Part shown: positions 40,155 through 43,696 of the stretch, piece after piece
How positions within the stretch are numbered: position 1 is the first letter of the stretch
Layout: every line of letters starts with the position of its first letter
DNA from: Methylobacterium ajmalii
GTDB taxonomy: Bacteria; Pseudomonadota; Alphaproteobacteria; Rhizobiales; Beijerinckiaceae
Length of the DNA: 64,000 bases
NCBI RefSeq assembly: GCF_016613415.1
Contig: NZ_JACWCT010000001.1
Coordinates: 33,219-97,218 of the forward strand
Reading direction: 5' to 3'
The notes under the pieces: generated by a model
Database searches by the model: none
Seen by the model: only the letters and a program-made list of their open reading frames with translations
Told to the model about the DNA's origin: nothing
Made by a program: the position numbers and the translations under genes

Positions 40155-40781
40155 TTACCGCGTCGCCGCCACCACGATCCGGGTCCGGCTGATGAAGGCG
40201 CGCGGGTCGGCGCCCTGGTGGCCGTAGAGGTCGCGGGTGACCGTCACGCTCTTCGGCCCCAGCGCCTTGCGGCACTCCTCCTTGACGAAGGTCTCGCCGA
40301 GCGGCGTCTCGTCGCCGACGGGCTTGGCCTCGGCGCAGGTCCAGCCGTCCTCGCCCCAGTGGCCCCGGGCCTGGATCCCGAGGAGGTGGCCCTTCTTGCG
40401 CAGGTAGAGCGGCACCGCGTCGTCGGTCTCGATCACCAGCCCGTCCACCCGCGCGTCGTCGCCCACCAGCAGCGTGAGGCGGGCCGGGTGCCCGGCGACC
40501 CGGGTGCCGTTGCGGGTGGTGCCGTCGGCGTAGGAGAAGCCGATGGCGTGCAGCCCCTTGGCGTCGGCCGGGCAGGCGCGCCAATCGGTCCAGCCGGCGA
40601 GGGGCTTGGCCGGGCCTTCGCGGCAGGCGAGGTCGCCGTAGCCCTTCGGCGAGATCTCCGAGACCGGCATCCCGACCTTGATGTCGCGCAGGTCCGCGAT
40701 CTCGGGGCCGGCGGCCAGAGCCGGGCCGGCGCAGGTCAGGGCGGCGAGGATCGCCAGGTCAGTGCGAGACGGTCGGCGCAT
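40155..40781 (-). CDS. secreted protein of unknown function in the quinoprotein cluster
   Basis: This 208-residue protein has a signal peptide (1 to about 23, ending ALAAGP) and a soluble mature domain. It contains IKVGMPVSEISPKGYGDLAC, GWTDWRACPADAKGLHAIGF and GHWGEDGWTCAEAKP. Mature cysteines are at LAC, RACP, WTCAE and EECRK, which could form two disulfides. The start overlaps the upstream cytochrome c gene by 23 bp, so translation is likely coupled. It is not XoxJ (wrong size and fold motifs) and no family was recognised. Its role is inferred only from context: periplasmic and tied to the quinoprotein system. Confidence 0.7.
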   Translation of the reverse strand: MRRPSRTDLAILAALTCAGPALAAGPEIADLRDIKVGMPVSEISPKGYGDLACREGPAKPLAGWTDWRACPADAKGLHAIGFSYADGTTRNGTRVAGHPARLTLLVGDDARVDGLVIETDDAVPLYLRKKGHLLGIQARGHWGEDGWTCAEAKPVGDETPLGETFVKEECRKALGPKSVTVTRDLYGHQGADPRAFISRTRIVVAATR

Positions 40782-41298
40782 CCGAGCCCTCCTTCTTGCG
40801 GTAGACGTCGCAGGCCCGGGAGGTGGTGCCGAAGAAGGCGGTGCATTCCTCGAAGGTCGGCTCGCCCTTGCCCTTGAGCTGGGTGGCGACGTAGCCCGCT
40901 ACCGCGTCGATCTCCGCCGGGCGCAGGAACACGGCCGTCTCCGGCGGCATGTTGCCGGCCATGTCGGCCTTCAGCGAATCGTAGCACTTCACCGAATCGT
41001 AGGCGCCGCGCAGGTGGTAGGGCATGCCGGTCCCGGGCCGGCCGCAGCGCACCACCTCGGCGATCTGGTCCTTGTCGAGCTGCGTCTTGCGCAGGGACAG
41101 GGCCTCGCCGCCATAGCCGCCGCCGCCGCCGCCATGCCACTTGTGGCAGCCCGAGCAGGCCTTCTTGAATACCGCGAGGTCGCCCTCGCCGCCGCCGCTC
41201 CTGACCCCCTGCGCCCAGGCCGCCGGGGAGGCGAGCGCCAAGCCGGCCAGCGCCAGGCCGGCGAGCAGTGCCGGCATTACCAGTTTCCGCATCCGCAT
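40759..41298 (-). CDS. c-type cytochrome, Cys-rich, quinoprotein-associated
   Basis: Periplasmic cytochrome of 179 residues, the likely electron acceptor of the adjacent dehydrogenase. A signal peptide (MRKLVMPALLAGLALAGLAL, ending AWAQG) precedes one CxxCH haem site, KKACSGCHKWHGGG. The axial Met is likely in TGMPYH or NMPPE. Besides the haem pair there are cysteines in VRCGRPG, VKCYDSL, FEECTAFF and RACDVY. This four-extra-Cys pattern resembles the cytochromes reported with methanol dehydrogenases. ATG 41298 or 41292 can start it; the earlier is listed. The downstream gene overlaps its end by 23 bp. Confidence 0.85.
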   Translation of the reverse strand: MRMRKLVMPALLAGLALAGLALASPAAWAQGVRSGGGEGDLAVFKKACSGCHKWHGGGGGGYGGEALSLRKTQLDKDQIAEVVRCGRPGTGMPYHLRGAYDSVKCYDSLKADMAGNMPPETAVFLRPAEIDAVAGYVATQLKGKGEPTFEECTAFFGTTSRACDVYRKKEGSDAPTVSH

Positions 41299-41338
41299 GA
41301 ACCTCTTGCGTGACCTCGTGCGTGGGGATCCCGCGCGT

Positions 41339-41363
41339 GGCGGGGCGCCGCCGGCGCCCCGCC
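41339..41363 (-). terminator. hairpin between quinoprotein and cytochrome genes
   Basis: Perfect 11-bp stem GGCGGGGCGCC / GGCGCCCCGCC with a 3-base loop, 15 bp beyond the quinoprotein stop on the minus strand and ahead of the cytochrome start. It lacks a U-run and lies inside the putative operon, so it more likely stabilises the quinoprotein mRNA or attenuates the downstream genes than ends all transcripts. Confidence 0.6.
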
Positions 41364-41378
41364 TCAAGGAATGTCGGC

Positions 41379-43148
41379 TCAGAGCGCGAAGACGTAGAGC
41401 ATCGAGCCGGTCTGGATGTTCTTCAGCTCCGGGGTCGAGTCGATGAACCACTTGTCCCAGGCGCCCCCGAGGCCGACCAGGATCGCGACGTACTGCTTGC
41501 CGTCGACCGTGAAGGTCATCGGGGGCGCGTTGACGCCGCTGCCGGTGCGGAACTCCCACAGCTTCTCGAGGCTCCTGGCGTCGAGCGCCATCACGCCGCC
41601 GCCGGGCTCGCCGGTGAAGACGAGGTCGGGCGTCGCCAGCATGCCGCCGAGCAGCGGGAACTGGGTCTCGTGCTTGCCGGCGACCTTGCCGGTCTTCACG
41701 TCGATCGCCGTCACGCTGCCGGTGATGCGGAACGGGTTGGTCGGCCCGCCGCCGGTGAAGAACTCGCGGGGTTTCAGGTTGGCCTGCGTCATCGCCTCGT
41801 GGGTGACGCGGTTGCAGCTCTCGATGACCGGGATGTACCAGTATTGCAGGTTCGGATTGTAGGCGGTCGGCGGCCAGTTCTTGCCGCCCATGTTGCCCGG
41901 GCAGAAATCGGCGGTCTTGTTCTCGGCCGAAGGGGTCGCTGCCGGGTTGTAGCGCTGCACGTCCTTGTTCGGGTCGTACTCGAACGGCTTGCCGGTATCG
42001 GGGTTGATGCCCTTGGTCCAGGTCACCTTCTTGACGAACGGCGTCGCCCAGACGAACTGGCCGTTGGTGCGGTCGACCGCATAGGCGTGGCCGTTGCGGT
42101 CGGCCTCGATGGCGAGCTTGCGGCCGCCGGCATCGACCAGAAGGTTCTCCGACACGCTGTCATAGTCGTAGGGGTCGTTCGGCGTGTGCTGGAAGTGCCA
42201 TTTGATCTTGCCGGTCGTCGCGTCGAGGGCGAGCGTCGAGTCGGTGTAGAGGTTGTCGCCCGGGCGGTAGGCGTTGTCCCAGTCCGGACCCGGGTTGCCG
42301 GTGCCCCACACGATGGTGTCGGTGTCGGGGTCGTAGGTGCCGGTGACCCAGGTCGAGCCGCCGCCGCTGACGGCCGCGTTGTTGTTACCCTTCCAGGTCT
42401 CGTAGCCCGGCTCGCCCTTGCCCGGGATGGTGTGGGTGCGCCAGACCTCCTTCTCGGTCTTCAGGTCGGTGGCGGCGATCCAGCCGCGGATGCCGTACTC
42501 GGCGCCGCCGACGCCCGAGATCGCCATGCCCTTCACGATCAGCGGTGCGCCCGTGATGGTCTCGCCCTTGTCGGGATCGGCGACCTGGCGCTGCCAGGCG
42601 ACCTGGCCGGTCTCCTTGTTGGTGGCGATCAGGCGTCCGTCGAGGGTGTGGCTGACCACGAGGTCGCCCCAGAGCGCGACGCCGCGGTTGTTGACGCCGC
42701 AACAGGCGACCGCGCCGGCCCATTCGCGGTCGGTCTTCGGGTCCATCTTCCAGAGGAGCTTGCCCTCGCCGCCGCGTGTGTCGATCTTGTAGACCGAGCC
42801 CCACCCGTCGGTGACGAACATCATGCCGTTCTCGACGATCGGGGTGCCCTCGAGCCCGCCGTGGCTCCAGATGCCGCCGGATTCGATGCCGCCCAGCGCC
42901 ATCGTCCAGGCGACCTTGAGGCCCTTGACGTTGTCCTTGTTGATCTGGGTCAGGGTCGAGAAGCGGTGGCCGGCGAAGTTCTTGTGGTGCTGGATCCAGT
43001 TGCCTTCCTCCTTGTCGGCGTTCAGCAGGCGCTCCTGCGTGACGCCGCCCTCGGCGGCGAGCGCCGGGGGCAGCGAGAGGGCACCGGCGGCGAGCGCGGC
43101 GAGGGAGGTGGCGGCAAGGATGCGCCGCGCCGTCCGGGACGTCGTCAT
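41379..43148 (-). CDS. PQQ-dependent alcohol dehydrogenase, lanthanide-type ligand set (ExaF/XoxF class)
   Basis: Periplasmic quinoprotein of 589 residues that oxidises an alcohol and passes electrons to cytochrome c. A signal peptide (1 to about 32) precedes an eight-bladed propeller. Cofactor features are the vicinal Cys pair C149-C150 (VACCGVNNRG), Glu217 (GGAEYGIRG), Asn285 (WGTGNPGPDW) and the catalytic Asp328 in NDPYDYDSV. Asp330, two residues later, is the extra acidic ligand that marks lanthanide-using enzymes; calcium MxaF has Ala there. RPGDNLYTDSTLALD and TPNDPYDYD look closer to ethanol-type (ExaF/PedH-like) than to XoxF5 methanol dehydrogenases. Metal and substrate are inference from these residues. 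Confidence 0.9.
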   Translation of the reverse strand: MTTSRTARRILAATSLAALAAGALSLPPALAAEGGVTQERLLNADKEEGNWIQHHKNFAGHRFSTLTQINKDNVKGLKVAWTMALGGIESGGIWSHGGLEGTPIVENGMMFVTDGWGSVYKIDTRGGEGKLLWKMDPKTDREWAGAVACCGVNNRGVALWGDLVVSHTLDGRLIATNKETGQVAWQRQVADPDKGETITGAPLIVKGMAISGVGGAEYGIRGWIAATDLKTEKEVWRTHTIPGKGEPGYETWKGNNNAAVSGGGSTWVTGTYDPDTDTIVWGTGNPGPDWDNAYRPGDNLYTDSTLALDATTGKIKWHFQHTPNDPYDYDSVSENLLVDAGGRKLAIEADRNGHAYAVDRTNGQFVWATPFVKKVTWTKGINPDTGKPFEYDPNKDVQRYNPAATPSAENKTADFCPGNMGGKNWPPTAYNPNLQYWYIPVIESCNRVTHEAMTQANLKPREFFTGGGPTNPFRITGSVTAIDVKTGKVAGKHETQFPLLGGMLATPDLVFTGEPGGGVMALDARSLEKLWEFRTGSGVNAPPMTFTVDGKQYVAILVGLGGAWDKWFIDSTPELKNIQTGSMLYVFAL

Positions 43149-43237
43149 GGGGGTCTCCTCCGGGCCGCCGTCTTTTGGGACGTGTCGCCGCGCCGCGGGC
43201 AGCCGCGCGGCCGGCGTCTTTTATTAAGAAATAAATC

Positions 43238-43696
43238 CTAGTTCGCGGCGCGAACCTCGACCGGCACCTCGACCGGGCCGGCCTTGCGGAAGCTCGCCGA
43301 GCAGGTGAAGCGCTCGCCGGCCACCAGCGGCTGGCGGGTCTGCAGCAGCATCACGTGCATGCCCTCGGGCGTCAGCGCGGTCTCGCCGGAGGCCTTGAGG
43401 GCGATGGCCTGGACCGGGCGCCTGGAGGGCGGGCCCTCGCCGCCCTTGTCGACCGTGACGCGCTCGCTGAAATTCGCGAACGGGCAGCGGAAGCGCACCA
43501 GCGAATCGGCCTCGGCCGCACGGTTCATCACCGTCAGGTGCAGGGGCACGTCGGACCCGACCTTCTCGGTGGGGGCGACCGAAGCGTGCAGCACGTCGAT
43601 CTCGCCGGCCAGGGCCGGGACACAGCCCAGCAACACAGCAAAGGCCACGCTCACCGTGCGGCGCCGGTAGTCGAGAGACGCTCTCAGCGACGGCAT
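43238..43696 (-). CDS. PCu(A)C-like periplasmic copper chaperone
   Basis: This 152-residue protein has a signal peptide (1 to about 30, ending ALAGE) and one DUF461/PCu(A)C-type domain. Recognisable parts are VLHASVAPTEKVGSDVPLHL, the C-terminal Cu motif EGMHVMLLQTRQPLVAGE (H114, M116) and KAGPVEVPVEV at the end. The first His/Met of the usual H-Mx10-Mx21-HxM site is not evident, so metal binding may be altered. PCu(A)C proteins deliver Cu(I) to respiratory copper sites. It is the first gene of the minus-strand quinoprotein cluster, 89 bp before the dehydrogenase, an unusual partner for a PQQ enzyme. Confidence 0.75.
   Translation of the reverse strand: MPSLRASLDYRRRTVSVAFAVLLGCVPALAGEIDVLHASVAPTEKVGSDVPLHLTVMNRAAEADSLVRFRCPFANFSERVTVDKGGEGPPSRRPVQAIALKASGETALTPEGMHVMLLQTRQPLVAGERFTCSASFRKAGPVEVPVEVRAAN

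Follow-up and report, generated by a model that had tools for sequence, protein, structure and literature searches.

The window analysed here is a 64,000-nt stretch of Methylobacterium ajmalii DNA, and all coordinates refer to this whole stretch. Its minus strand carries a cluster of four genes which, in the order of transcription, encode a PCu(A)C-like protein, a pyrroloquinoline quinone (PQQ)-dependent alcohol dehydrogenase (ADH), a c-type cytochrome and a protein that we call orf208. The first gene (43238..43696) encodes a PCu(A)C-fold protein of 152 aa with an apparent signal peptide; at 60.7 bits against PF04314 (cut-off 29.4) it is a member of this family. The ADH (41379..43148, 589 aa) exceeds the curated cut-off of TIGR03075 (535.5 bits against 480.05), and the cytochrome (40759..41298, 179 aa) that of PF13442 (30.6 bits against 27). 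The last gene, orf208 (40155..40781, 208 aa), begins with what appears by eye to be a Sec signal peptide and is characterised by its family, its conservation and its synteny. Gaps of 89 bp and 80 bp precede the ADH and the cytochrome genes, and the cytochrome and orf208 genes share 23 bp. The large ordinary-looking open frames nearest to the cluster on both sides lie on the opposite strand, as judged by eye. An earlier reading made from the sequence alone (hereafter the sequence-only reading) had described a quinoprotein ADH cluster of four genes with a 23-bp cytochrome/orf208 overlap; the common strand, the model scores of the first three genes and the coordinates bear this out. It had also set the cluster apart from the XoxG/XoxJ type, and no match to a XoxJ/MxaJ-like periplasmic binding protein was found among the four genes in Pfam or NCBIfam. 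Once antisense frames of the four genes were set aside, the flanking regions of six query loci revealed no fifth gene widely common to Methylobacterium and the remaining loci.

The metal ligands that the sequence-only reading had named for the ADH are present: E217, N285, D328 and D330 align by eye with the Glu, Asn and Asp-x-Asp of PDB 6zcv/6zcw, and a vicinal cysteine pair is found at C149-C150. The closest solved relative of the window ADH is 6zcv (E 2.7e-106), and we take 6zcv/6zcw to be PedH; the Asp-x-Asp pair is thus a likeness to the PedH/ExaA quinoprotein ethanol dehydrogenases. All 78 ADH rows counted among loci L014-L093 share the E/N/D/D pattern, and the cysteine pair is also aligned in 77 of them. 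In a quick tree the window ADH lies inside a separate clade of 33 rows (support value 100). An identity as XoxF or MxaF was rejected: L003, L006 and L107, labelled XoxF/MxaF-like by ligand pattern only, fall outside this clade. The genome of the window contains six TIGR03075 matches above cut-off, and the window ADH groups with none of the others. By ligand pattern and identity, two of these (L003 and L004) are XoxF-like in appearance, L001 and L002 resemble the ADHs L235 (Trp-Ala type) and L234 (Trp-Asp type) of the M. aquaticum 22A plasmid pMaq22A_1p, and L006 resembles the third ADH of this plasmid, L236 (Tyr-Ala, MxaF-like), the XoxF and MxaF labels in this genome being drawn from ligand pattern and tree.

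Comparison with M. aquaticum helps to place the enzyme. Strain DSM 16371 has six PQQ-ADHs with the same ligand patterns as the genome of the window; one of them, encoded in the same gene cluster, shares 96% identity with the window ADH and is its counterpart. Setting aside the XoxF-like, the MxaF-like and the pMaq22A_1p-like enzymes among the six, this counterpart alone has Asp301. Six genes similar to methanol dehydrogenase are listed for strain 22A: mxaF, xoxF1, xoxF2, adh4 and adh6 (1p32165, 1p30675) and exaF (c07235) (PMC5784242). La3+ induces the last of these (Maq22A_c07235), whose product contains Asp301 and shares 37% identity with the enzyme of strain AM1 (PMC5784242). By elimination, the window ADH is probably the ortholog of 22A ExaF through its DSM 16371 counterpart. 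This strengthens the lanthanide reading proposed for the ADH by the sequence-only reading, because 22A ExaF is La3+-induced; a lanthanide is the likely metal. The 22A enzyme, a PQQ-ADH of type 6b, supports slow La3+-dependent growth on ethanol and oxidises formaldehyde in vivo (PMC7356819), and has been placed in a group 6 that occurs mostly in clade C1 (PMC8561711). A 22A strain named re-exaF, which has ExaF as its sole PQQ-ADH, has been described (PMC7356819). Ethanol or formaldehyde may likewise be the substrate of the window ADH. The passages on 22A ExaF in these published accounts make no mention of its neighbouring genes.

The fourth gene had been described as unrecognised, and we obtained no match for orf208 at E 1 in Pfam, NCBIfam or PHROGs. 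Its relatives are hypothetical proteins that make up a large family; Pfam searches over 40 members (set A1) returned one weak match only, to FG-GAP (E 0.0084). The family, as compared by sequence, is without a name in these three libraries, and its novelty is judged within the open-access literature, where passages of papers on ExaF, PQQ-ADHs and pentapeptide repeats describe no orf208-like protein. Among the papers listed in a search on accessory proteins and fusions of quinoproteins, none has a title on this subject. C53, C70, Y84, R128, C149 and C170 are kept without exception across the 50 rows of A3, the wider alignment; in alignment A2, C170 is present in 28 of 29 rows, the miss being a shortened copy (L164). 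The four conserved cysteines may form two disulfides, and the N-terminal signal points to a periplasmic location. The columns of R128, K129 and K130 are basic in all 40 rows of the close family, which has nine conserved basic columns versus five acidic ones (D30, D33, E118, D120 and E168 are the only acidic columns at 90% or more). By Pfam, the window orf208 has no pentapeptide repeats, and none of the four genes of the cluster is a pentapeptide gene.

We scanned GTDB contigs with the close orf208 family and found 84 loci, 80 of which were kept: 11 from Methylobacterium, 54 from Bradyrhizobium, one from Tardiphaga and 14 from others. The search patterns were derived from orf208 alone, so that ADH neighbours were not favoured. 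In all 80 kept loci the gene immediately upstream, in the same orientation, encodes an ADH (a few ADHs, e.g. in L061 and L083, are clipped by the contig edge), which confirms that the cluster is real and beyond chance. A cytochrome stands between ADH and orf208 in 79 loci (the exception is L060), and the match to the orf208 profile starts no later than the cytochrome stop codon in 73 of 79 loci, one of them a fusion (L075), the starts being imprecisely predicted. The synteny of PCu(A)C and PQQ dehydrogenases, for which the sequence-only reading had proposed a survey, recurs: a PCu(A)C gene stands ahead of the ADH in 66 of the 80 loci, all of them in Methylobacterium, Bradyrhizobium or Tardiphaga.

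The association extends to broader samples, whose tallies are lower bounds, only some of the first-look candidates per genome having been scored. In the class sample of 385 genomes, eight have the family (the genome of the window included), and an ADH was found within the fetched region of 16 of 18 non-window genes. One of the two ADH-less regions (L170) holds the PQQ-ADH-system genes TIGR03863, TIGR03866 and TIGR03861; the other (L175) likewise lacks an ADH and has no PQQ-ADH-system neighbour either. In the order sample, 11 of 397 genomes carry the family (again with that of the window), with an ADH in 16 of 20 non-window regions; among the four misses, L213 and L225 reach a contig edge near the gene, unlike L219 and L228. 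Some genomes (G142, G428, G920, G958 and that of the window) appear in more than one sample, and at least three order-sample regions (L230-L232) may duplicate loci of the contig scan, so the counts are not additive. We also analysed five whole genomes, that of the window and four picked for many orf208 copies. Here 37 of 40 family genes have an ADH match no farther than 3 kb away, and 34 stand downstream of it on the same strand, while the upper bound for random placement near an ADH is 0.7 to 13.4% per genome. Occurrence of the family without quinoproteins, which would have spoken against the sequence-only reading, thus does not hold for most copies. One 3.2-Mb genome of the same order (G920; regions L213-L219) combines 52 PQQ-ADH matches (pieces joined), some of them in arrays, with 20 orf208-family genes.

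Natural fusions connect orf208 to both small partners of the window cluster. In L075, the cytochrome and orf208 form one open frame of 398 codons, in which no second, internal signal peptide was seen by eye, as expected of a genuine fusion. A search with the orf208 half of L075 recovered 208 proteins. Among the 120 matches listed, Pfam identified further cytochrome c-orf208 fusions in P0190-P0192, which are close to L075 (itself P0189), and in the separate P0275; P0224 appears by eye to be a truncated cytochrome fusion. Fusions of orf208 to PCu(A)C were detected by Pfam in P0223, P0232, P0236, P0251 and P0277 among the same matches. Copies of the wider family are also joined to C-terminal pentapeptide repeats, as checked with Pfam in four cases (L172, L173, L176 and L179), and others adjoin frames that are pentapeptide-rich by a simple pattern. 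Over the five genomes 22 of 40 family copies reside in open frames of at least 480 aa (18 of the 20 in G920). No fusion of orf208 to an ADH was seen among those examined. Fusion of orf208 to both the cytochrome and the PCu(A)C protein is classic evidence of joint action, and fusion to the electron acceptor would be easier to reconcile with a stoichiometric partner than with a transient chaperone.

Taken together with the plain genomic association of orf208 with ADHs, these data lead us to propose, with a probability of about one half, that orf208 is a dedicated periplasmic accessory subunit of the quinoprotein ADH system, which holds together the ADH, the cytochrome and, here, also the PCu(A)C-fold protein. 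In this mechanism the disulfide-stabilised orf208 would dock the ADH to its cytochrome c in the periplasm, and electrons would pass between the two within the complex. In the window cluster the PCu(A)C-fold protein, probably copper-free, would join the assembly. A stable complex, an adaptor role and a part in electron transfer would all be consistent with the fusions and the gene order. The accessory role foreseen for orf208 by the sequence-only reading is supported in so far by synteny and fusions. A bolder version, which we offer tentatively and at somewhat less than even odds, is that orf208 founds a new periplasmic family which is the missing adaptor of one entire branch of quinoprotein ADHs. 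It would be a disulfide-stapled hub that clamps the ADH, the cytochrome c and a PCu(A)C fold no longer carrying copper into a single unit for electron transfer, and that multiplied together with the ADHs, as far as the 20 copies and roughly 52 ADH matches of G920.

Several observations weigh against an adaptor role. No clear structural match was found for the fold of orf208, for which a Mog1/PsbP-like fold was considered, and its gene occurs in only five of 37 genomes of the same genus, that of the window included. The fusions are also compatible with an assembly factor. Three of the 40 copies in the five genomes have no ADH nearby. Conversely, these genomes have 102 ADH matches after joining of pieces, of which 48 have a family gene within 3 kb (1/6, 8/15, 5/15, 26/52 and 8/14 per genome); with fewer than half of the matches near a family gene, an orf208 partner is therefore not always needed. 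Only eight of 117 TIGR03075 rows are above the curated cut-off (six in the genome of the window and two in G958), and all PQQ-ADH matches of G920 are below it, so that divergent members make up most of the ADHs in the copy-rich genomes. With a threshold of E 0.001 this model also finds matches in nine of 14 control genomes, none of them over cut-off. Many wider-family copies directly follow the ADH with no cytochrome between, which weakens a role confined to docking the cytochrome. The frequency of this arrangement suggests that the lasting partner of orf208 is the ADH. ADH and orf208 give a lower mirror-tree correlation (0.86) than ADH and cytochrome (0.93), and common descent alone could produce both.

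The same side of the balance includes ADHs of the same clade that lack orf208. In eight genomes of the class sample (G161, G270, G359, G437, G139, G349, G427 and G189) the fetched regions contain a same-clade ADH (L146-L153, 55 to 62% identical to the window ADH) and a cytochrome, with neither orf208 nor PCu(A)C; for orf208, searches of these regions with wider profiles at E 0.1 were negative as well. Together with L154 these ADHs form a group of nine rows within the 33-row clade (97, quick tree). Orf208 is also absent from the ADH regions L182 (the region of L154) and L183. It was either lost or replaced in these same-clade systems, or gained elsewhere. In the ADH-cytochrome clusters of L186 and L184, which are without orf208, an open frame some 240 codons long was noticed by eye 3' of the cytochrome; it includes a hydrophobic segment and might encode a replacement partner.

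The closest rival to an adaptor is a periplasmic maturation chaperone, which would fold the ADH or cytochrome, or load PQQ and metal, and stay outside the finished complex. We regard this as a real possibility, although we would not expect it to prove correct. It accounts for the ADH being the recurring partner, often with no intervening cytochrome, and the basic patch of R128, K129 and K130 might, speculatively, bind the carboxylates of PQQ. The fusion of wider-family copies to pentapeptide proteins, or their position beside them, recalls PedD of the Pseudomonas ped cluster, listed under 'Maturation and activation' (PMC12997753), but the same section leaves the role of PedD undefined (PMC12997753). 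Furthermore, the cytochrome fusion and the short cytochrome/orf208 overlap suggest that the proteins are made in equal rather than catalytic amounts, and orf208 is missing from the neighbourhood of some same-clade ADHs.

Metal handling is a second alternative, in which orf208 and the PCu(A)C protein would bind lanthanide or copper and deliver it to the quinoprotein system. The orf208 gene adjoins a likely lanthanide enzyme and the PCu(A)C neighbour is frequent. The copper motif of PCu(A)C proteins is H(M)X10MX21HXM, and 51 of 55 PCu(A)C copies outside Methylobacterium have it, whether in strict or loose spacing. In contrast, none of the 11 Methylobacterium copies does. The window protein, aligned with solved PCu(A)C chains, retains the HxM (H114 and M116) and has lost the upstream His and Met, so that two of the four ligands of the strict motif are missing. 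The strict motif is likewise absent from all five orf208-PCu(A)C fusions, of which P0232 alone keeps the HxM by eye. The absence of the motif in Methylobacterium copies makes copper delivery unlikely here, and the label of copper-chaperone-like given to this gene by the sequence-only reading is doubtful; in Bradyrhizobium, judging from the motif, copper delivery by the cluster PCu(A)C may persist. Moreover, 14 of the 80 loci have no PCu(A)C at all. In orf208 itself the DxDx[DN]G pattern of EF-hand-like motifs was not found, and the conserved acidic columns are outnumbered by the basic ones. The suggestion that orf208 is a metal-handling factor is therefore not upheld, and we consider metal delivery improbable. 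A role outside both electron transfer and maturation, e.g. in attaching the enzyme to the envelope or to a pentapeptide scaffold, or in product sensing, would suit the long pentapeptide fusions and frames and the suggested relation of PedD to biofilm physiology (PMC12997753), but it leaves the cytochrome c fusions unexplained, the window orf208 has no pentapeptide part, and we think it very unlikely.

The PCu(A)C protein of the window thus shares its Pfam family with the copper chaperones DR1885 and TTHA1943 and differs from them in its two lost ligands and in two locally invariant cysteines (C71 and C132, present in 67 of 67 rows of the local family, the window included). A second PCu(A)C domain in the same genome (L237, on G000:C174) is C-terminal in an open frame of 464 codons and shows, by eye, a His-X10-Met-X22-His-X-Met arrangement. 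The open-access literature yielded nothing that joins PCuAC to PQQ alcohol dehydrogenase, although the spelling PCu(A)C may escape such a search. The cytochrome has its CxxCH motif at C48-H52 and a methionine at M92, as well as four further cysteines (C85, C105, C152 and C163) that are invariant over 80 aligned rows.

Comparison with known systems places orf208 among accessory proteins of several kinds. The MxaD- and AdhS-type partners are small non-redox proteins needed by, or part of, dehydrogenase-cytochrome systems, as is proposed here for orf208, and no sequence or clear fold link between them and orf208 was found. Orf208 differs from lanmodulin-like lanthanide binders in having no EF-hand-like motif. 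PedD is a pentapeptide-repeat partner of a PQQ-ADH and in this resembles the wider-family orf208 domains that are fused or adjacent to such repeats, but the window orf208 is repeat-free. A PedD truncation mutant is impaired in the presence of short-chain alcohols (PMC12997753). The part of the ped gene list given there comprises PedD, PedF, PedG, a SoxYZ-like carrier and a metallohydrolase (PMC12997753), and in this listed part nothing is described like orf208, which sets the ped operon apart from the window cluster. We found no open-access paper treating an expansion of PQQ-dependent dehydrogenases together with pentapeptide proteins.

Alcohol dehydrogenases of the lanthanide type hold a central place in rare-earth biology, and orf208 is a candidate accessory protein of these enzymes beyond XoxG/XoxJ. 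A family unnamed in the libraries searched follows ADHs through the Alphaproteobacteria and is naturally fused to their likely electron carrier, which provides a concrete target for genetics in the tractable Methylobacterium. The cluster also indicates that a PCu(A)C annotation beside a quinoprotein need not imply copper delivery.

A few further features were noted at these loci. The gap between the ADH and cytochrome genes of the window contains a perfect hairpin (41342..41360, minus strand) with an 8-bp stem, GGGGCGCC, and a 3-nt loop; it has no T run, and is possibly an element of mRNA stability or stoichiometry. A second hairpin, terminator-like, lies where the PCu(A)C gene ends (43240..43256, minus strand); it emerged from a site search against shuffled sequence, in which the whole stretch has four such sites versus a shuffled mean of 2.3 (sd 1.5), i.e. 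not above background; lying directly 3' of the PCu(A)C gene, it might cause the level of the PCu(A)C transcript to differ. Two PQQ-ADH-like proteins beside orf208 relatives (L226:7102-8829 and L224:9531-11147) lack the metal-ligand pattern, with DAGFS and DMATN at the ligand columns, and are perhaps non-catalytic paralogs. Finally, genes of the molybdopterin aldehyde oxidase/xanthine dehydrogenase type occur near the cluster (L086:4973-7258 and L048:11101-13812), either gene having matches in 12 loci outside Methylobacterium, its own among them; the encoded enzymes could oxidise the aldehyde product.

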